The notes below the pieces were generated by a model that saw nothing but the letters and a program-made list of their open reading frames with translations, was not told the origin of the DNA and did no database searches. Positions 174-10,275 of a stretch of DNA of 64,000 nucleotides are shown piece after piece. The translations under genes and the position numbers were made by a program. This stretch comes from Flexivirga aerilata (lineage in GTDB: Bacteria > Actinomycetota > Actinomycetes > Actinomycetales > Dermatophilaceae), in assembly GCF_013002715.1 (NCBI RefSeq), contig NZ_JABENB010000002.1, positions 248,001 through 312,000 of the forward strand, written 5' to 3'. How positions within the stretch are numbered: the first letter of the stretch is position 1; the number at the start of each line of letters is the position of its first letter.

Positions 174-2582
174 TCACTTTCCTCCGGACTGCGGGGCCCG
201 AGCGGCGGTCGCGGGCACGTCGAACCGGACGTCGACCTGCAGTGTGTCACCGTGCGGACGCAGCGTGCCGCGTCGCCGGTCGCCGGTGCAGACCAGCGGC
301 AGACGGCTGACGAGCAACGTCTCCGGCAGCACCGCGGTCGACAGGTCGTTCTCGGCGCTGGTGCTGAAGAGTGTCCAGGTGACGAGGCTGGCGAGCGGGT
401 CCACCTCGTGCGGGACCCCCTCCACGTCGAGCAGGTCGGCGACCGGCACCCGGACCGTCCAGTCCGTGCCGGTGACGCTCGTCGCCGCCACCTCGACGTA
501 GTCCTCGGTGCCGGGCAGGTAGCGCCGCCAGGAGAGCACCCAGTCGCCGTCGGCAGCAAGCGACCGCCCGCGGACCACCAGGTCCGGGCCGTCGAGCTCC
601 GCGCTGTCGGCGACCAGCCGGACTGCGGATTCCCAGAGGTTGGCGTAACCGGCAGCGGACCGGGTCAACCGGAACTGGTTGTCCCCGACCCGGCTGATCA
701 CACTGCGCCGTCCGGCGTCCCAGAGCAGCGGGTGGTGCTTGCCGCCGGCGCGCACCTGGATGCCGCGGGTGGTGATCCGCAGGAACGGATCGTCGTCATC
801 GGTGCGTGCGGCGACTTCGGACAGCGGGATGCGGCCGATCAGGTGGGTCGCGCCGCCGTCGATGCGACAGGTCGCCGGGTAGCGCAGGTCCTCGGCGTAG
901 CGGTTGCCGGGCAGGACGAACTGCGCGACCTGCAGCGGGCGCGGGGCGCGGGCGGTGAGCACCAGGTCGTCGCCGTCCACCTCGCCGGCGGTGATGGTCC
1001 ACGGCGCGACGTGCCAGCTGAGGAGAAGCTCCCCGCTGCGGTTCGAACTCGGCTGGACCCACAGCTGATCGGTGAGAAACCCGCCCTCGGGGAAGGTCGC
1101 GCTGCCGGGTCGCAGACCACGCAGCAGGCCGTTGCGTCGCGCACCGCCGCTGCTCAGCTGAAGGTCGAATCGCACCGGCGCCTCCGCGGCACCCCATCGG
1201 GCGAGCGTCGCGCGGTCGATGACCATCTCGAAGCCGCAGTAGGCGAGTTGGCCGTGCGAGTCGACGTCCTCGAACCGGCGGACCGGGACCTGCTCGCGGA
1301 TCGCGCTGGACACCGCGAACACCCGCAGCGAGCTGTCGGCACCGGTCGGCAGGTGCCGGACCTCGGCGACCGCACGGACATGCAGACCGTCGTCCTCCCA
1401 GCGGACCGCGTTGACGGTCGTGCGCAGGGCCAGATCCTTGGCCGGGGAGAGGAAGACGTCCTTCGGCAGATAGGACCTGCCGTGGCCGGGGTAGGCGTAC
1501 TCGTATCGGCCGAGGCTGCGCGGCACCTTGAACGCGCGGGCGCCGCCGCGCAGTCCGCCGTCGCGGCGGAACACCGCGAGCTCACGCAGGAGTTCGACGT
1601 CCCGGGCGAGCATCGCGTGATACTGCAGCTGGTCGTAGCGGGTGCGCTGCTGCAATGCGTCGATGCCGAGTCGCTCAACGAGCTCGTGGCCGAGGTCGAT
1701 GAGTTGATAGCACTCATCCTCGGTGGCGGTCGCGAACGCCTGCACGATCGAGACGAAGTCGGACTCCGCGAGCATGACGTGGGTGCGCAGGCGCACGGGT
1801 TTCGGCGCGGCGGCGACGAGGTCGACGACCATGCTCGCCGACCGGACGCGATCGAGCAGGTTGTCGTAGCGGAAGACCTGCTGGGTGATCGAGTCGCCTG
1901 ATTCACGCTCCCGCCAGTAGTAGACCGGCTGGGAGAGGATGTCCACGGTCACCGCATCGAGGTGGGCCTTGAGCGTGACCGGGTAGTCCTCGTAGCGGAT
2001 CGCCGGGAACTCGTAACCGAACTCGTCCCAGAAGTCGCGCCGGTAGACCTTGTTCCACACCATCCGGTCGCGGGCCAGCACCGGATGATCGAAGACGTGC
2101 GTCGCGAACCGCGTGCGGGCGAACGCGTGCAGCTGGGCCCATGACGGCTTGACACCGCTGGAGTTGTTGAAGCGCCGGGCGTTGCCGCCGACGAACGACG
2201 AGCCGGTGGTGTCCAGCGCCTCGATCATGCGGCTGAACCCGTGCCGAGTCACCAGGTCGTCGCTGTCGACGAACGTGAGGTACTCGCCGGCCGCGTGTTC
2301 GGTGCCGGTGTTGCGGGCCGGTCCGAGGCCGCCGTTCTCGCGGGTGACCACCCGGAAGCGCGGGTCCTGCGCGGCATACGCCTCGGCGACCGAGCGGCTG
2401 CCGTCCGGCGAGCCGTCGTCGACCATGATCACCTCGATGTCGCTGAGGTGCTGCACCCGGATCGACTCGAGGCAGTCGCCGATGTAGTTCTCGACGCCGT
2501 AGAACGGGACGACGACCGACAGGCGAGGCTTCGAGCCCAGGCGACGGACCGTCGAGGGGGCACTGACGGAAGGCTGCGCCAT
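174..2582 (-). CDS. Large GT2-family glycosyltransferase with C-terminal beta-rich extension
   Basis: A protein of 802 aa. Residues 20-240 form a GT-A family 2 glycosyltransferase domain: LSVVVPFYGVENYIGDCLES near 21-40, the nucleotide-binding DDG at 55-57 and the metal-binding DSDD at 106-109. WNKVYRRDFW follows. The remaining ~550 residues are not GT2. They look like repeated beta-sandwich-type segments, as seen in wall-teichoic-acid and capsule polymer glycosyltransferases. The ATG at 2582 lies 5 bp past the pseI stop, so the two genes are almost certainly one operon. The donor and acceptor sugars are unknown. The reading frame stays open far upstream of this ATG, but that part is antisense to pseI and is a composition artefact. 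Confidence 0.85.
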   Translation of the reverse strand: MAQPSVSAPSTVRRLGSKPRLSVVVPFYGVENYIGDCLESIRVQHLSDIEVIMVDDGSPDGSRSVAEAYAAQDPRFRVVTRENGGLGPARNTGTEHAAGEYLTFVDSDDLVTRHGFSRMIEALDTTGSSFVGGNARRFNNSSGVKPSWAQLHAFARTRFATHVFDHPVLARDRMVWNKVYRRDFWDEFGYEFPAIRYEDYPVTLKAHLDAVTVDILSQPVYYWRERESGDSITQQVFRYDNLLDRVRSASMVVDLVAAAPKPVRLRTHVMLAESDFVSIVQAFATATEDECYQLIDLGHELVERLGIDALQQRTRYDQLQYHAMLARDVELLRELAVFRRDGGLRGGARAFKVPRSLGRYEYAYPGHGRSYLPKDVFLSPAKDLALRTTVNAVRWEDDGLHVRAVAEVRHLPTGADSSLRVFAVSSAIREQVPVRRFEDVDSHGQLAYCGFEMVIDRATLARWGAAEAPVRFDLQLSSGGARRNGLLRGLRPGSATFPEGGFLTDQLWVQPSSNRSGELLLSWHVAPWTITAGEVDGDDLVLTARAPRPLQVAQFVLPGNRYAEDLRYPATCRIDGGATHLIGRIPLSEVAARTDDDDPFLRITTRGIQVRAGGKHHPLLWDAGRRSVISRVGDNQFRLTRSAAGYANLWESAVRLVADSAELDGPDLVVRGRSLAADGDWVLSWRRYLPGTEDYVEVAATSVTGTDWTVRVPVADLLDVEGVPHEVDPLASLVTWTLFSTSAENDLSTAVLPETLLVSRLPLVCTGDRRRGTLRPHGDTLQVDVRFDVPATAARAPQSGGK

Positions 2583-2587
2583 CGAGG

Positions 2588-3664
2588 TCAGACCAGGTCC
2601 CAGCTGAGGGCCGTGCCGCGCTTGACGTCGGTGGCGAAGGTGCGGCCCTCGACGACCTCGAACAGGTCGGGTGCGAGGCCGCCGGCCGGGCGGATCGAGC
2701 GCACATTGTGGCCGGTGACGCGCTCGCCGGCGCGCACGTCCTGCACGACATACAGCGAGCGACGGAAGCGCAGCCCCTCGCGCTCGCCCTCCTTGGCGCC
2801 GATGGTCGGCTGACCCAGGCACTGCCAGGCGATCTCGGATTCGCGCACCAGTGCTGCGAGTTCGGCCGGTTCGAGCGAGAACGACGAGTCGACCCCGCCA
2901 CCCTCGCGGGCCAGCGTCACGTGCTTCTCGACCACGACCGCGCCGAGCGCGACCGCGGCCAGCGGGGCGCCGATGCCGGGGGTGTGGTCGGACAGTCCGA
3001 TGTGGGCGTCGAACGCGTCGCGCATCACCGGGATGCCGCGCAGGTTGGACTCCTCGGGGTTGGCCGGGTAGTCGGCGGTGCAGGACAGCACGATGATCCG
3101 CTCGTTGCCGGTGCTGCGCGCCGCGGCCACCGCGGCGTCGATCTCGCTGATCGAGGCCATGCCGGTGGAGATGATGATCGGCTTGCCCTTGCTCGCGGCC
3201 AGGCGGATCAGCGGCAGGTCGACGATCTCCGACGACGCGATCTTGTATGCCGGGGTGTCCAGCGACTCCAGCAGGTCGACGGCGGTCGGGTCGAACGGCG
3301 ACGAGAAGCAGGCCAGGCCAAGGGAATTGGCCAGCTCGAAGATCGGCTCGTGCCACTCCCAGGGGGTGTGCGCCTCCTGGTAGAGGTCCCACAGGGTGCG
3401 CCCGCCCCACAGCTCGTGCCCGTCGGACAGCCGGAAGTCCGGGGCGTCGGACTCGATGGTGATGGTCTCCGGCTTGTAGGTCTGCAGCTTGACCGCCTGC
3501 GCGCCGGAGTCGGCGACCATGCGGACGATGTCGAGCGCCTTGTCCAGGGAGCCGTCGTGGTTGCCGGACACCTCAGCGATGATGAACGGCCGGTGGCCCG
3601 GACCGATCTGGTGTTTGCCGATGGTGATGTCGGGCAGTCGGGAGTGGTCTGGCTGGTCAGTCAT
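2588..3664 (-). CDS. pseI: Pseudaminic acid synthase-type nonulosonate synthase
   Basis: A protein of 358 aa, full length for the NeuB/PseI family, which condenses phosphoenolpyruvate with a 6-carbon amino sugar to make a nonulosonic acid. N-terminal TIM barrel: FIIAEVSGNHDGS near 27-39 and VKLQTYKPETI near 58-68. The segment HTPWEWHEPIFE near 98-109 is typical of the pseudaminic rather than the sialic acid branch. Further landmarks are STGMAS, LSCTADYP and GLSDHTPG. A C-terminal antifreeze-like SAF domain covers about 295-358. It overlaps the acetyltransferase gene by 8 bp. The branch assignment (pseudaminic versus legionaminic) rests on motif memory. The other Pse enzymes (PseB, PseC, PseG, PseF) are not in the window and may lie to the left. 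Confidence 0.88.
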   Translation of the reverse strand: MTDQPDHSRLPDITIGKHQIGPGHRPFIIAEVSGNHDGSLDKALDIVRMVADSGAQAVKLQTYKPETITIESDAPDFRLSDGHELWGGRTLWDLYQEAHTPWEWHEPIFELANSLGLACFSSPFDPTAVDLLESLDTPAYKIASSEIVDLPLIRLAASKGKPIIISTGMASISEIDAAVAAARSTGNERIIVLSCTADYPANPEESNLRGIPVMRDAFDAHIGLSDHTPGIGAPLAAVALGAVVVEKHVTLAREGGGVDSSFSLEPAELAALVRESEIAWQCLGQPTIGAKEGEREGLRFRRSLYVVQDVRAGERVTGHNVRSIRPAGGLAPDLFEVVEGRTFATDVKRGTALSWDLV

Positions 3665-4169
3665 TCGGCATTCTCCTGCGTCGGATGGTGTGCACGACGG
3701 TCGGCTCTCCGGCGATCTCGCGCTCCTGCGTGTCGATCTCCTCGAACCCGTTGCGGGTGTTCATGCGGCGGACGGCCTCGTTGGCGTCGAGCACCTCGCC
3801 GCGGAGCTCGTCCAGGCCGAGCCCGGCATCGGGTTGTGCGAAGGCGAACTTGACCGCCTCGCGCTGGATCTTGATCCATGCCGGCAGCAACTCGCCGCGC
3901 GCGCCGAGGCCCTCGTTGTCGAGGTAGTAACCCCACATCGCCGACTTGGCGTCCTCGTCGATGTCGAAGAAGGTCACCACGCCCGCCGGCTCGCCGCCGC
4001 GTTCGTAGATGAACACCCGGCGGGCCGGATTGTCCTGCAACGACTGCCAATAGGCGTCGTGCTGCTCGGGGGAGATGACCTCACGGTTGAGGGAGACCGC
4101 GCGCACGTCGGGGTGGTTCCGCCATACGCGCACCAGCTCCTTGTCCGCATCGGTGGCGGGGCGAAGCAA
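3657..4169 (-). CDS. GNAT N-acyltransferase, PseH-like
   Basis: A protein of 170 aa. The likely start is TTG at 4169, with GGAGG 6 nt upstream; no ATG or GTG fits as well. It has a GNAT fold like RimJ/RimL and PseH: WRNHPDVRAVSLN near the N-terminus, GEPAGVVTFFDID as the central strand, and ANEAVRRMNTRNGFEEID as the acyl-CoA-binding and alpha-4 region. In pseudaminate pathways PseH N-acetylates UDP-4-amino-4,6-dideoxy-AltNAc, and the position directly upstream of pseI supports that role. It starts back to back with the acyl carrier protein operon, so an ACP-borne acyl donor is also conceivable. Confidence 0.75.
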   Translation of the reverse strand: MLRPATDADKELVRVWRNHPDVRAVSLNREVISPEQHDAYWQSLQDNPARRVFIYERGGEPAGVVTFFDIDEDAKSAMWGYYLDNEGLGARGELLPAWIKIQREAVKFAFAQPDAGLGLDELRGEVLDANEAVRRMNTRNGFEEIDTQEREIAGEPTVVHTIRRRRMPND

Positions 4170-4271
4170 TCGAGCCTCCGGAAGGAAAGTGCGGGCGGGT
4201 ATGGCGTGGCTGCAGGGCAGGCCCAGCCGTCTACACTACAGCAGGCCGATTCGACTACCACGGAGGTTCTT

Positions 4272-4523
4272 TTGTCCACGCTGAGCCGTGATCAGGTGCG
4301 CACGATGATGGGAGAGGTGCTCGCGACGCAGGGCAAGGAGCTTCCCGCCGACGACAGCACCCGGCTCGACGCGATCGGCTTCCGTTCGCTCGACTTCTCC
4401 GAGCTGGCGCTGCGGGTCGAGGACGAGCTGGACACCGAGCTCAACTTCGACGCGCCCGAGCTGCGCTCCATCGAGACCGTCAGCGACGTGCTCGACTTCG
4501 TCGACCAGCTGCAGCAGGCGTGA
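4272..4523 (+). CDS. Acyl carrier protein
   Basis: A protein of 83 aa. The TTG start at 4272 has GGAGG 5 nt upstream, and a TACACT -10-like box at 4232-4237 could drive the operon. It has a four-helix ACP fold; the phosphopantetheine site is Ser39 in the sequence GFRSLDFSEL. The usual Asp before this Ser (DSL) is Arg here, which is unusual but occurs in specialised carrier proteins. The stop overlaps the GTG of the adenylate-forming ligase (GTGA), implying translational coupling. It is probably a dedicated carrier for a tailoring acyl group rather than the fatty-acid-synthase ACP. Confidence 0.85.
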   Translation: MSTLSRDQVRTMMGEVLATQGKELPADDSTRLDAIGFRSLDFSELALRVEDELDTELNFDAPELRSIETVSDVLDFVDQLQQA

Positions 4524-5737
4524 GCCAACCGGCCGGCGCGGGCAACCGCATCGTCACCAGCCGGTATGACGGCACCTGGGCCGGCCTGCCGGGGTGGCCC
4601 GAACTTCCTTCTGCCGCAGCGGTGCTCGTCGCCGACAACACCGACGCGGTGCGAGCCGTCTGGCAGCACGTCACCGACGGCGACCGGGAGACGCTGATCG
4701 CGACCGCCACCCGGGTGGAGGACGAGCAGGCCGAGGGCTTCCGCGCCGACGGCCTCGCGGTGGTGCGCGGCGACGTGGTGCAGCCGGCGACCGCGCAGCG
4801 CGCAGCGGACGGCGGACGGGTGTGGCTGCTCACCAGCGGCTCGACCGGCCGGCCGAAGCAGGTCGCCCACACGCTCGACTCCCTGACGACCGTCGCCGGC
4901 GACCAGCCGGCCCGGACCTGGCTGTGCCCCTACGCGACCGGCGCATACGCCTGGTGGCAGGTGGTGACGCTGTCGCTGTCGCTGCCCGGGCAGGACGTCG
5001 TCTTCGTCGAGCCGTCCCAGCTCGACGAGTGGCCGCAGCTGGCCCTGGAGCACGGCGTCACCGCCGCCTCCGGCACGCCGACCTTCTGGCGGCAGGCGCT
5101 CTGGCGCGCCGGCGACGTCGTCGCGCAGCTGAAGCTGGAGCAGATCACCCTCGGCGGCGAGCCGGTCGACCAGGCGATCCTCGACCGGCTGCGCGAGGTC
5201 TTCCCGGACGCCCGGATCTCCTGGATCTACGCCTCCTCCGAGGCCGGTGCCGCGATCGCGGTGCACGACGGGCGGGCCGGTTTCCCGCAGGCCTGGCTGG
5301 ACCGGGAGACCGCCGGCCGGCCGCGCCTGTCGGTCGCGGACGGCGAGCTGGTGATCGCCTCGCAGAAGGCTGCCGAGGGGATGGCCCCCGCCATACGCAC
5401 CGGGGACCGGGTGGAGATCGTCGACGGCCGGGTGCTCATCACCGGCCGGATCGCGTCCGACGAGATCAACGTGGGCGGGTCCAAGGCGTCCGCGTCGAGC
5501 GTGCGCCGGGTGCTGCTCGACCACCCCGACGTCGTGTGGGCGGCGGTGCGCGGCCGCAAGGCGCCGCTGGTGGGCAACATGGTCGTCGCCGACGTGGTGC
5601 TGCGCGACGGTGCCGAGGCGGACACCGCACGCCTGCAAGCGTTTTGCGCGGAGCGCCTGCCCGACTATTCCGTGCCGCGCCGGATGCGCGTGCTGCCCGA
5701 GATCCCGATCAAGGAGACCCTGAAGAGCGATGTCTGA
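4520..5737 (+). CDS. Acyl/aryl adenylate-forming ligase (AMP-dependent synthetase)
   Basis: A protein of 405 aa, short for the ANL family (usually 500 or more). The P-loop LLTSGSTGRPKQV is at 103-115, the A5-type motif YASSEAG is mid-protein, and TGDRVEI and RIASDEINVGG mark the hinge. The catalytic C-terminal lysine region IPIKETLK ends the protein. The short N-terminal subdomain resembles stand-alone ligases that load carrier proteins. It overlaps the ACP gene by 4 bp and the reductase gene by 8 bp, so a carboxylic acid is probably adenylated and passed to that ACP. The substrate is unknown. Confidence 0.85.
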   Translation: MSQPAGAGNRIVTSRYDGTWAGLPGWPELPSAAAVLVADNTDAVRAVWQHVTDGDRETLIATATRVEDEQAEGFRADGLAVVRGDVVQPATAQRAADGGRVWLLTSGSTGRPKQVAHTLDSLTTVAGDQPARTWLCPYATGAYAWWQVVTLSLSLPGQDVVFVEPSQLDEWPQLALEHGVTAASGTPTFWRQALWRAGDVVAQLKLEQITLGGEPVDQAILDRLREVFPDARISWIYASSEAGAAIAVHDGRAGFPQAWLDRETAGRPRLSVADGELVIASQKAAEGMAPAIRTGDRVEIVDGRVLITGRIASDEINVGGSKASASSVRRVLLDHPDVVWAAVRGRKAPLVGNMVVADVVLRDGAEADTARLQAFCAERLPDYSVPRRMRVLPEIPIKETLKSDV

Positions 5738-6476
5738 AGTTGAGCCGATCCCCGCCGCGTCGTGCGTGCTGATCACCGGTGGGTCCCGCGGGCTCGGGCT
5801 GGAGCTGGTGCGCGACGCGCTGCGCCGCGGCGCCAAGGTCGCGACCTTCTCGCGGTCGATCACCCCGGAGCTGCAGGCACTCGCCGACGAGCACCCCGAC
5901 ACGCTCTTCGTCGGGTCGGTGGACATCACCGACGACACCGCGGTGAAGCAGTTCATCAAGGACGCGTCGGCCAAGCTCGGGCCGATCGACTCGCTGGTCA
6001 ACAACGCCGCGATCGGGCAGGACTCGATGCACGTGCACACCTCGCCCGACCGCATCGCCCAGATCGTCACCACCAACCTCACCGCGCCGCTGGTGCTGAC
6101 CCGGCAGTTCATCCGGCACGCGATGGCCAAGGCCGGTCGCGGCCGCATCGTGATGGTGACCTCGGTCGGCGCCCAGCGCGGCTACTCCGGCCTGGTCACC
6201 TACGCCGCGACCAAGGGCGGCCTCGACTCGGCGATGCGCACCCTCGCTCGTGAGATGCACGGCCGCTTCCTGGTCAACTCGGTCGCGCCGGGCTTCTTCG
6301 CCTCGGAGATGTCGTCGGTGCTCGGCAACGAGCAGTTGTCGGCGATCAGTCGCCGCACCCCCTCCGGGCGGATGGTGACCCCGGAGAACATCGCGCCGGT
6401 GGTCGGTTCGCTGCTCTTCGACGACACCAACCTCAACGGTCAGGTCATCACCGTCGACGGCGGCAGCTCGATCTGA
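5730..6476 (+). CDS. Short-chain dehydrogenase/reductase, FabG-like
   Basis: A protein of 248 aa, standard for classical SDRs. The NAD(P)-binding TGGSRGLG is at 16-23, then VNNAAIG, the catalytic Ser of VTSVGAQ and YAATKGG (YxxxK), and it ends with QVITVDGGSSI as FabG enzymes do. The likely reaction is reduction of a 3-oxoacyl-ACP to 3-hydroxyacyl-ACP, or of a sugar/acyl keto group. The 8-bp overlap with the ligase gene puts it in the ACP operon. Arg in SRS after the second strand suggests NADPH preference. Confidence 0.85.
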   Translation: MSEVEPIPAASCVLITGGSRGLGLELVRDALRRGAKVATFSRSITPELQALADEHPDTLFVGSVDITDDTAVKQFIKDASAKLGPIDSLVNNAAIGQDSMHVHTSPDRIAQIVTTNLTAPLVLTRQFIRHAMAKAGRGRIVMVTSVGAQRGYSGLVTYAATKGGLDSAMRTLAREMHGRFLVNSVAPGFFASEMSSVLGNEQLSAISRRTPSGRMVTPENIAPVVGSLLFDDTNLNGQVITVDGGSSI

Positions 6477-6486
6477 CGGCGGCGTC

Positions 6487-6912
6487 ATGGCGTCCTCGCG
6501 TGCACGGCAGGTCCTCTCGGTGTATGCCGTGCCCGGGCGCCTCACCGTCGGCGCCTCCCACCAGGTGCGCGCCGCCGGCGTCGGGGTGCGCTCCCACCTC
6601 GCGGACGGTCGCGGCGTGGTCTGGGATCCCGCCCTGCCACAAGGGTTTTCGGCCGCGATCGACGCGGAGATCCTGCTGCAGTCGGTGACCCCGCGGCTGG
6701 CGCGGCGGGTCGGCAGCGACGACCCGGCGATCGTCTGGCCGCGGTGGACCCGCTGCGAGGTCGCGGCGAAGCTGCTGGACCTGCCGGTGCTGTCCTGGCT
6801 GGCCTGGGACCGCCTGCAGCTGCCGGCCGACGTGGCCGCGCGCATTGACACCGCGCACGTGCGGGTCGGTGACGTGCTGGTCTGCTGCGGGGTGCGCGGG
6901 CCGGAGGGCTGA
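6487..6912 (+). CDS. Hypothetical protein, last gene of the ACP operon
   Basis: A protein of 141 aa that I do not recognise. It starts 10 nt after the SDR gene and is probably in the same transcript. It is soluble with no signal peptide or membrane segment, and has mixed alpha/beta content: SVYAVPGRLTVG, then a segment with VVWDPALPQGF and IVWPRWTRCE. There is a C-terminal CCG. Its tail is convergent, 8 bp from the stop of the next gene. Given the neighbours it may act on the ACP-bound intermediate, but nothing in the sequence shows this. Confidence 0.65.
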   Translation: MASSRARQVLSVYAVPGRLTVGASHQVRAAGVGVRSHLADGRGVVWDPALPQGFSAAIDAEILLQSVTPRLARRVGSDDPAIVWPRWTRCEVAAKLLDLPVLSWLAWDRLQLPADVAARIDTAHVRVGDVLVCCGVRGPEG

Positions 6913-9324: not shown

Positions 9325-10275
9325 GTGCAGGTCGTCGTCACGGGAGTGCGCAGCCGCACCCACCTGATCCACCTGGCCGCCTACCTGCGTGACCTGCTCT
9401 CCCGCGGCGAGCGGCTCACCGTCACCTACCTCGGCGGCGGCACTTTCCTGGGGCACGCATCGGTGACCGAGACCGACGTCCGCCGCCTGCTGCCCGACGA
9501 CCCCGCGCTGCAGGTGCGTTTCGTGAGCGGGCTCGCCGAGCTCGCCGCCGTCCCCGGCGACGTGACCTACCTGTCCGTCGGCGCCCCCGGCATCAAACCG
9601 TGGATTGCGTTGCGGCGAGCCGACATTCGCCGTCGCGTGACGACCGTCGTCACCGACGAGGGCATCGGCACCTATGGCGATTGGCGCACCCGCCGCGACG
9701 CGTGGCGGCGCCAGGGCGTGCGCGAACCGTGGACCACCACCCGCGCGCTCGCCATCGAGGGCGCGGTGCGCGGCCTGACCACCACCCGCTTCCCGATGTA
9801 TGACGAGAGCCGCGATTTCGCGCTGCACCCGGGGATCGCCGCGGAGTTCCGGCGGCACAGCGGGGACGCCGCACCGGACCCGGCGGACGGGCGCGTGGTC
9901 TTCCTCGGGTCGCCGTGGGTCGAGATCGGTGCGTTGACGCCGCAGGCCTACCTCGCGCACGTCGACGGCATCGCGCGCCGGGTCGCCGCCGACGGCGGGC
10001 GCCTCGTCATACGGCCCCATCCGGCGGAGGACCCGGCCCGCTACGCCGGGCGTGAGGTGATCGCGGGTGACCTGCCTGCCGAGCTCGACCCGCAGGTGGT
10101 TGGCGCCTCGGCCGTGATCGGGGGCGCGAGCACCGCGCTGCTCAACCTGGCCGCGCTGCACGGCATGCCGGCGACGAGGGTGCTCACCCCCGGCCTGGAG
10201 CACCTGGAGAGCGAGCTGGGGGAGCGGCAGCGGGCTCTGCTGGACCGTTACCTGCGGCCGCCGGCCGGGGGCTAG
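9325..10275 (+). CDS. (Poly)sialyltransferase-family glycosyltransferase, candidate nonulosonate transferase
   Basis: A protein of 316 aa from GTG 9325. It carries the three signatures of bacterial sialyl/polysialyltransferases (GT38/GT52-like): the D/E-D/E-G motif in VVTDEGIGTYGDW, the HP motif in LVIRPHPAED, and the S/T-S/T motif in IGGASTALLN. In those families these residues bind CMP-nonulosonate. With pseI 6 kb away, the likely donor is CMP-pseudaminic acid or a relative, and the acceptor a wall glycan. It follows the GT2 gene by 1 nt. The family call is from motifs only; no alignment was made. Confidence 0.75.
   Translation: MQVVVTGVRSRTHLIHLAAYLRDLLSRGERLTVTYLGGGTFLGHASVTETDVRRLLPDDPALQVRFVSGLAELAAVPGDVTYLSVGAPGIKPWIALRRADIRRRVTTVVTDEGIGTYGDWRTRRDAWRRQGVREPWTTTRALAIEGAVRGLTTTRFPMYDESRDFALHPGIAAEFRRHSGDAAPDPADGRVVFLGSPWVEIGALTPQAYLAHVDGIARRVAADGGRLVIRPHPAEDPARYAGREVIAGDLPAELDPQVVGASAVIGGASTALLNLAALHGMPATRVLTPGLEHLESELGERQRALLDRYLRPPAGG

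Follow-up and report, generated by a model that had tools for sequence, protein, structure and literature searches.

A candidate hydroxyacyl priming cassette beside pseudaminic acid genes in Flexivirga aerilata and other actinobacteria

In the biosynthesis of the antibiotic mupirocin, the proteins MupQ, MupS and MacpD make 3-hydroxypropionyl-acyl carrier protein (ACP) from malonyl-CoA, with MupS described as a malonyl-CoA/ACP reductase, and the priming unit of thiomarinol is 4-hydroxybutanoyl (PMC10098928). Pseudaminic acid (Pse) carrying a 7-N-(R)-3-hydroxybutanoyl group is likewise known (PMC9676051, PMC3628348, both as excerpted), and the Acinetobacter modules for 5-N-acetyl-7-N-(3-hydroxybutanoyl)-Pse consist of six genes, psaABCGHF, among which the excerpted accounts name no carrier, ligase or short-chain dehydrogenase/reductase (SDR) (PMC9676051, PMC6586298). 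Furthermore, a review states that certain polysaccharide backbones contain 4-hydroxybutyric acid in amide linkage to Pse (PMC9912281); its source for this (ref. 244) may, at a guess, concern Kribbella. In the titles and abstracts of the open-licence papers searched we found no description of a carrier-ligase-SDR set for Pse acylation. Many bacterial surface sugars bear unusual N-acyl groups, and to our knowledge it has not been established how these are supplied. Here we analyse a stretch of 64,000 nucleotides (the window; contig NZ_JABENB010000002.1, positions 248,001 to 312,000) from the 4.0 Mb genome of the soil actinobacterium Flexivirga aerilata, in which genes for an ACP, an adenylate-forming ligase and an SDR stand next to genes for a PseH-like acyltransferase of the GNAT family and a pseudaminic acid synthase (PseI). 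The ACP-ligase-SDR trio probably produces an uncommon hydroxy acid with which Pse is decorated, and we lean, by a little, towards the more specific reading that it is a hydroxyacyl priming cassette like MupQ/MupS/MacpD, from which the GNAT transfers the hydroxyacyl group to N7 of Pse.

Layout and co-inheritance of the five genes

A preliminary description, made from the sequence of the window, had placed the five genes in two divergent operons, and its coordinates, strands and overlaps hold. On the reverse strand, the gene at 2588..3664 encodes a protein with PF03102 and PF08666 domains that scores 445.6 bits against TIGR03586 (cut-off 340.25), as befits the PseI-type synthase it was taken for, and it is overlapped by 8 bp by the GNAT gene (3657..4169), whose product is the proposed N-acyltransferase of the 4-amino-altrose precursor. 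The intergenic region (4170..4271) has the two operons on either side and contains GGAGG at 4262-4266, five bases past which lies the TTG start codon (4272) of the ACP gene (4272..4523, forward strand; PF00550). With this start, the serine expected to bear the phosphopantetheine is indeed Ser39, in the motif GFRSLDFSE. The ligase gene (4520..5737, forward strand) overlaps the ACP gene by 4 bp (GTGA) and encodes a short adenylate-forming (ANL) enzyme of 405 amino acids with PF00501 and PF13193, the proposed loader of the carrier; the SDR gene (5730..6476, forward strand), encoding a proposed acyl-thioester reductase, overlaps the ligase gene by 8 bp.

Upstream of the window start, at a distance of 3.4-9.2 kb (locus L003), are genes for PseB, PseC, PseG and a cytidylyltransferase that is PseF-like and fused to an aldo-keto reductase. 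PseB scores above its curated cut-off and PseC (405 vs 424 bits) and PseG (119 vs 154 bits) below theirs; taken together, the Pse pathway of this genome looks complete. Outside the window (G000:C1:1350699-1351742; L004:9696-10745), another PseI is encoded, with 71% identity and a score over the PseI cut-off. The other pse queries gave no match within 20 kb of it, and its neighbours, judged by eye, resemble a LysR regulator and a MetNI-type transporter.

Homologous loci were sought with two peptide patterns in a collection of one genome per species (84,980 species), and because the ligase alone served as bait, they were not chosen for Pse genes. The search yielded 148 named loci, and all locus counts given here cover the best 80 of the 148. 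The nearest named relative, judged by the ligase, is Flexivirga meconopsidis (94%), although very close records may be missing from the search. The ACP, ligase and SDR genes stand in tandem on one strand in all 80 loci; the GNAT gene is present within 10 kb in 78, being divergent and less than 500 bases from the ACP gene in 60 of these; and PseI was found in 71. In seven of the nine loci without PseI, the contig breaks off close to the cassette (L056, L065, L076, L086, L089, L106 and L115), and L115 is also one of the two loci without the GNAT. The loci are related and hence do not represent 80 independent events.

Among 58 related genomes, a ligase orthologue occurs in 14 (E at most 4e-143, the next match being at 3e-16), the GNAT in exactly those 14, and PseI, at an E value of 1e-120 or lower, in 17, namely the same 14 plus G009, G019 and G024. 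The distribution is patchy even inside the genus, with ligase, GNAT and PseI all present in two genomes (G003, G004) and none of them in two others (G001, G002). G009 and G019 have a PseG-GNAT fusion instead, in which the GNAT part shows the usual, RGxxLG-like motif A, and the trio was not found in 20 kb; the 20 kb searched in G024 gave no PseH-like match. An even sample of 296 genomes of the class (cut-offs of 1e-60 for the ligase, 1e-10 for the GNAT and 1e-90 for PseI) contained the ligase in 6, the GNAT in 7, PseI in 13 and all three in 5, two of which (G000, G013) also belong to the 58; six of the PseI genomes lack both ligase and GNAT. Fisher tests of co-occurrence, which ignore relatedness, gave 1e-13 and 7e-9. 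The association of the trio with the GNAT and PseI is thus more than chance and is strongly conserved, so that the co-occurrence anticipated in the preliminary description is clearly borne out.

The reductase, the carrier and the ligase

The SDR had been described as a FabG-like reductase, an identity that we abandon. Among solved structures, the closest to it is MupS of mupirocin (4yxf), with E 7e-43 against 3.5e-36 for the next match. In a tree of 31 SDRs, which includes 13 of the 88 cassette SDRs and not MupS itself, 12 FabG-like proteins, 11 of them paralogues from this genome, occupy one side (support 96/78; 100% of 200 bootstrap trees). The other side (93/86) unites the 13 cassette SDRs with those of trios from Bradyrhizobium, Burkholderia, Azospirillum, Qingshengfaniella and thiomarinol (pTML1), whose ligase, SDR and ACP we take to be TmlQ, TmlS and TacpD, the record itself giving no names; the thiomarinol SDR groups with the cassette SDRs at 87/85. 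The 88 orthologues referred to here and below comprise one from each of the 80 named loci, that of the window and those of seven more relatives, some of which, at least, belong to species already among the named ones. Residues R208-R209-T210 occur in 88/88 cassette SDRs, and Arg-Arg at 208-209 in 11/11 aligned trio SDRs, and 6 FabG-like proteins have no Arg at either site; MupS likewise reads RRTP in alignment with the SDR. The score against the FabG model TIGR01830 (162.3 vs 297.75 bits) is weak evidence when taken alone, since no protein of this genome passes that cut-off, and it is the relationship to MupS together with the tree that rules out FabG. On sequence grounds, then, the SDR belongs to the MupS/TmlS lineage and not to FabG.

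Because the SDR groups with MupS/TmlS, because the mupirocin trio gives 3-hydroxypropionyl-ACP and the thiomarinol unit is 4-hydroxybutanoyl (PMC10098928), and because the Acinetobacter modules, as excerpted, name no such trio (PMC9676051), a terminal-hydroxyacyl-ACP is a likelier product than 3-hydroxybutyryl; by analogy of lineage and gene set, this is what the trio should make. The preliminary description had proposed a 3-hydroxyacyl group such as 3-hydroxybutyryl, a proposal that suffers both from the SDR not being of the FabG type and from the psaABCGHF modules having no named carrier or ligase in the excerpts (PMC9676051, PMC6586298). We have accordingly lowered 3-hydroxybutanoyl from its place as the leading acyl group, no trio being named for its listed producers (PMC9676051). 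In such a scheme the ligase would load acetoacetate or another beta-keto acid, the SDR would act as a ketoreductase and the GNAT would transfer a 3-hydroxyacyl group, for example 3-hydroxybutanoyl. It would account for the known 7-N-(R)-3-hydroxybutanoyl Pse (PMC9676051, PMC3628348, as excerpted), and the SDR keeps the full catalytic Asn116-Ser145-Tyr158-Lys162 (in at least 87/88 cassette SDRs) and still has FabG-type models as its nearest curated families; however, given the SDR's place in the tree and the gene content named for the Acinetobacter modules, we consider it unlikely.

The carrier motif GFRSLDFSE is unchanged in 88/88 ACP orthologues, so the Arg preceding the modified Ser is a family trait, which agrees with the earlier suggestion of a dedicated carrier. 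Carriers of three other trios also lack the usual Asp (GLRSLDLAE in Bradyrhizobium, LTSLDLAE in thiomarinol and GLSSLDLAQ in Burkholderia), and those of the Azospirillum and Qingshengfaniella trios keep it (DSL). MacpD of mupirocin is among the matches of the ACP, weakly (E 0.02).

The core motif of the ligase, TSGSTGxPK, is exact in 83/88 cassette ligases. We tried to read the substrate from the fold and gave this up: the AlphaFold 2 model (mean predicted local distance difference test score, pLDDT, 89.1) matches many carrier-loading and CoA ligases and carries no specificity. In a ligase tree, the 12 cassette ligases included form a clade with those of the Azospirillum and Qingshengfaniella trios (99/96), and the pTML1, Bradyrhizobium, Burkholderia and Rhizobium ligases form a separate one. 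As the branch joining the latter to the cassette clade is weak (60/43), a lineage common with the antibiotic trios is supported for the SDR only. Databases label this family of short ligases 'AMP-binding protein' or 'long-chain fatty acid-CoA ligase', names for which the present analysis offers a first reading.

A different acid is conceivable. Depsipeptide synthetases have a ketoreductase, and the SDR might act in a like manner on an alpha-keto or alpha-hydroxy acid (pyruvate, 2-oxoglutarate) loaded by the ligase, yielding N-lactoyl- or similar Pse. The ligase is weakly and locally similar to AmcH, named a 2-oxoglutaryl-ACP ligase, and the ACP to AmcB, yet both matches fall far under the cut-offs (46.8 vs 370 bits and 21.4 vs 80 bits). 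N-lactyl on Pse has been reported (PMC9912281). We regard this explanation as very improbable.

The acyltransferase, the proposed route and the neighbouring genes

The GNAT scores 89.4 bits against TIGR03585 (PseH), for which the cut-off is 93.1; the earlier designation as PseH-like stands. Orthologues in G013 and G088 and a relative in G266 pass this cut-off, and both the PseH fold and the Pse pathway context were found, so that the protein, judged from its sequence, is PseH-like and just under the curated line. Its motif A region reads R-G-E-[LT]-L-P in the window and in most relatives, a degeneration that only suggests a difference in the donor. Inferring the donor from motif A was given up, as PseH of Helicobacter pylori itself has an atypical P-loop (PMC4964394, as excerpted).

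What the sequences show is the genes, the families they belong to, their co-inheritance and the lineage of the SDR; for the favoured reading we infer a substrate, a product, an acyl-ACP donor for the GNAT and a destination as follows. The ligase would adenylate a small dicarboxylate, either free or as the CoA half-thioester (malonyl or succinyl), and load it on the Ser39-phosphopantetheine of the ACP; the SDR would then reduce the distal thioester to an alcohol with NAD(P)H, giving 3-hydroxypropanoyl- or 4-hydroxybutanoyl-ACP. The PseH-like GNAT would move the hydroxyacyl group to the 4-amine of UDP-4-amino-4,6-dideoxy-L-AltNAc, the future N7 of Pse, and PseG, PseI and PseF would convert the product to CMP-Pse bearing N5-acetyl and N7-hydroxyacyl groups, for incorporation into a wall glycopolymer. 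If true, this would connect the priming of an antibiotic with the chemistry of cell-wall glycans, provide a genetic marker predicting which actinobacteria make hydroxyacyl-Pse polymers, and offer a portable ligase-ACP-SDR-GNAT set for new sialic-acid-like sugars. A more far-reaching version is an ACP-dependent route for the N-acylation of nonulosonic acids. Here a polyketide-type priming trio would reduce a thioester to give 4-hydroxybutanoyl- or 3-hydroxypropanoyl-ACP, a PseH dependent on this ACP would place the acyl group on N7, and the free terminal hydroxyl would then be glycosylated, making the amide-bound hydroxy acid part of wall-polymer backbones across Dermacoccaceae, Intrasporangiaceae, Kribbella, Nocardioides and Micromonospora. 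We put this forward tentatively, as possible but on the doubtful side.

Several observations weigh against the favoured reading. To judge from the tree, orthology of the ligase to MupQ is not clear, and since its grouping with the thiomarinol ligase is unclear, its substrate may differ; the likeness of carriers between trios is also weak (at best 30% over 71 residues, E 0.004). L053 and L121 are real PseI misses within 10 kb, and L053 lacks the GNAT as well. In G076, ligase, ACP and SDR genes are on a 5.9 kb contig that stops 183 bases beyond the ACP match, and searches for the GNAT and PseI gave nothing. The Pse pathway and a GNAT belonging to this clade occur in G183 and G266, where no ligase was found genome-wide and the 20 kb searched held no match to the ACP or SDR; the GNAT may thus be able to act independently of the trio. 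In addition, a PF01757 membrane acyltransferase occurs in 23/80 loci, all between L066 and L117 (e.g. L066:15127-16476), and is another candidate there for using the acyl group.

The last two points would fit a GNAT that is an ordinary acetyl-CoA-dependent PseH, the hydroxyacyl group of the trio being destined for another position or residue of the polymer (an O-acyl group, another amino sugar or a chain linker). The same can be said of the remaining 18 of the 78 loci with a GNAT (17 from Kribbella and one from Streptomyces), where GNAT and PseI are 4.2-7.1 kb from the trio, and of the Qingshengfaniella trio, which adjoins a different acyltransferase. Nevertheless, the GNAT tracks the ligase one to one in the 58 relatives, and the loci closest to that of the window, L043-L063, have no member of the PF01757 family. 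The recurrence of PF01757 elsewhere raises the odds of this alternative a little and lowers those of the favoured reading slightly; we hold the alternative to be distinctly unlikely and still lean, by a little, towards hydroxyacyl transfer to N7.

Beyond the five genes, 22 families were each found in at least 15 of the 80 loci. Those with a Pfam match include glycosyltransferases, the PF01757 acyltransferase, a major facilitator superfamily transporter, a C39 peptidase and an FAD-dependent oxidoreductase. No obvious acid-supplying gene was seen among the Pfam-matched recurring families, several families having no match and at least two being unscanned, and no ketosynthase among the eight window proteins scanned or the scanned recurring families. 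Directly after the SDR gene lies a gene (6487..6912, forward strand) for a 141-amino acid protein with no Pfam match, whose family occurs in 37/80 loci, always on the forward strand (37/37), its start lying no more than 60 bases from where the SDR match ends in 34/37; from its position it may be the fourth gene of the ACP-ligase-SDR operon. On the other side, PseI is followed by a GT2-family glycosyltransferase with a long C-terminal part (174..2585, start approximate, reverse strand; PF00535, E 6e-35), the family of which is found in 45/80 loci. A family starting MHHxNxxYGHAxxLARY, with no Pfam match, recurs in 48/80 loci (e.g. L043:19-891), with a copy recognised by eye on the reverse strand from the window start to about 170; it is possibly a transferase of the polymer. 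Further away, the product of 9325-10275 (forward strand) matches alpha-2,8-polysialyltransferase (PF07388, E 5e-6), and a relative was noticed by eye near PseI in G024 (L154:4783-5721). A CoA-transferase-like gene, named by eye, lies at L003:1296-2069.

Comparison with trios elsewhere and with known systems

In Azospirillum, ligase and SDR genes lie about 5 kb from a PseI gene in 8/8 records examined, out of 19 with an SDR match and all from this one genus, and in two annotated records the order is ACP-ligase-SDR, then ketoacyl-ACP synthase III and flagellin. This recurrence supports a Pse-related role of the trio in another phylum. On two Azospirillum plasmids (L206, L229) we observed pseI, a further small carrier-like or hypothetical gene, an alpha/beta hydrolase gene, ACP-ligase-SDR, ketoacyl-ACP synthase III and then flagellin, a candidate set for extended acyl decoration of flagellin Pse. 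Elsewhere, mupirocin-like ligase-SDR-ACP trios are followed by a polyketide synthase gene in Bradyrhizobium elkanii pS05J (L207) and by a very long 'SDR family' gene in Burkholderia stagnalis plas2 (L210), and hydroxyacyl-primed polyketides are a possible product of both. In Rhizobium sp. T1470 (L214), an SDR and a short ligase adjoin a CmlS-like halogenase, the ligase grouping with that of thiomarinol (99/96).

Compared with the antibiotic systems, the window resembles mupirocin and thiomarinol in having ligase, SDR and ACP genes side by side and an SDR of one lineage with theirs, thiomarinol also in its non-Asp carrier motif, and the mupirocin set in a gene content that there makes a hydroxyacyl group on a carrier (PMC10098928, as excerpted). 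It differs from pTML1 in gene order (ACP-ligase-SDR as opposed to ligase-SDR-ACP), in a ligase from another well-supported clade, and in its company, a sugar GNAT and Pse genes here as against a polyketide synthase there. The Azospirillum pseI-flagellin locus shares with the window the order ACP-ligase-SDR near pseI and the ligase clade, whereas its trio adjoins flagellin and has an added ketoacyl-ACP synthase III, and the GNAT of A. brasilense Sp7 is only 26% alike over 137 residues. Set beside the PseH enzymes of H. pylori and Campylobacter jejuni (4ri1, 4xpk), the GNAT is 22% identical to 4ri1. Finally, as in the psaABCGHF modules of Acinetobacter and psb of Shigella boydii, exchange of the acyltransferase inside a Pse module would determine the N7 acyl group; unlike those modules, for which the excerpted sources name no dedicated carrier, ligase or SDR (PMC9676051, PMC3628348), the locus of F. 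aerilata has all three.

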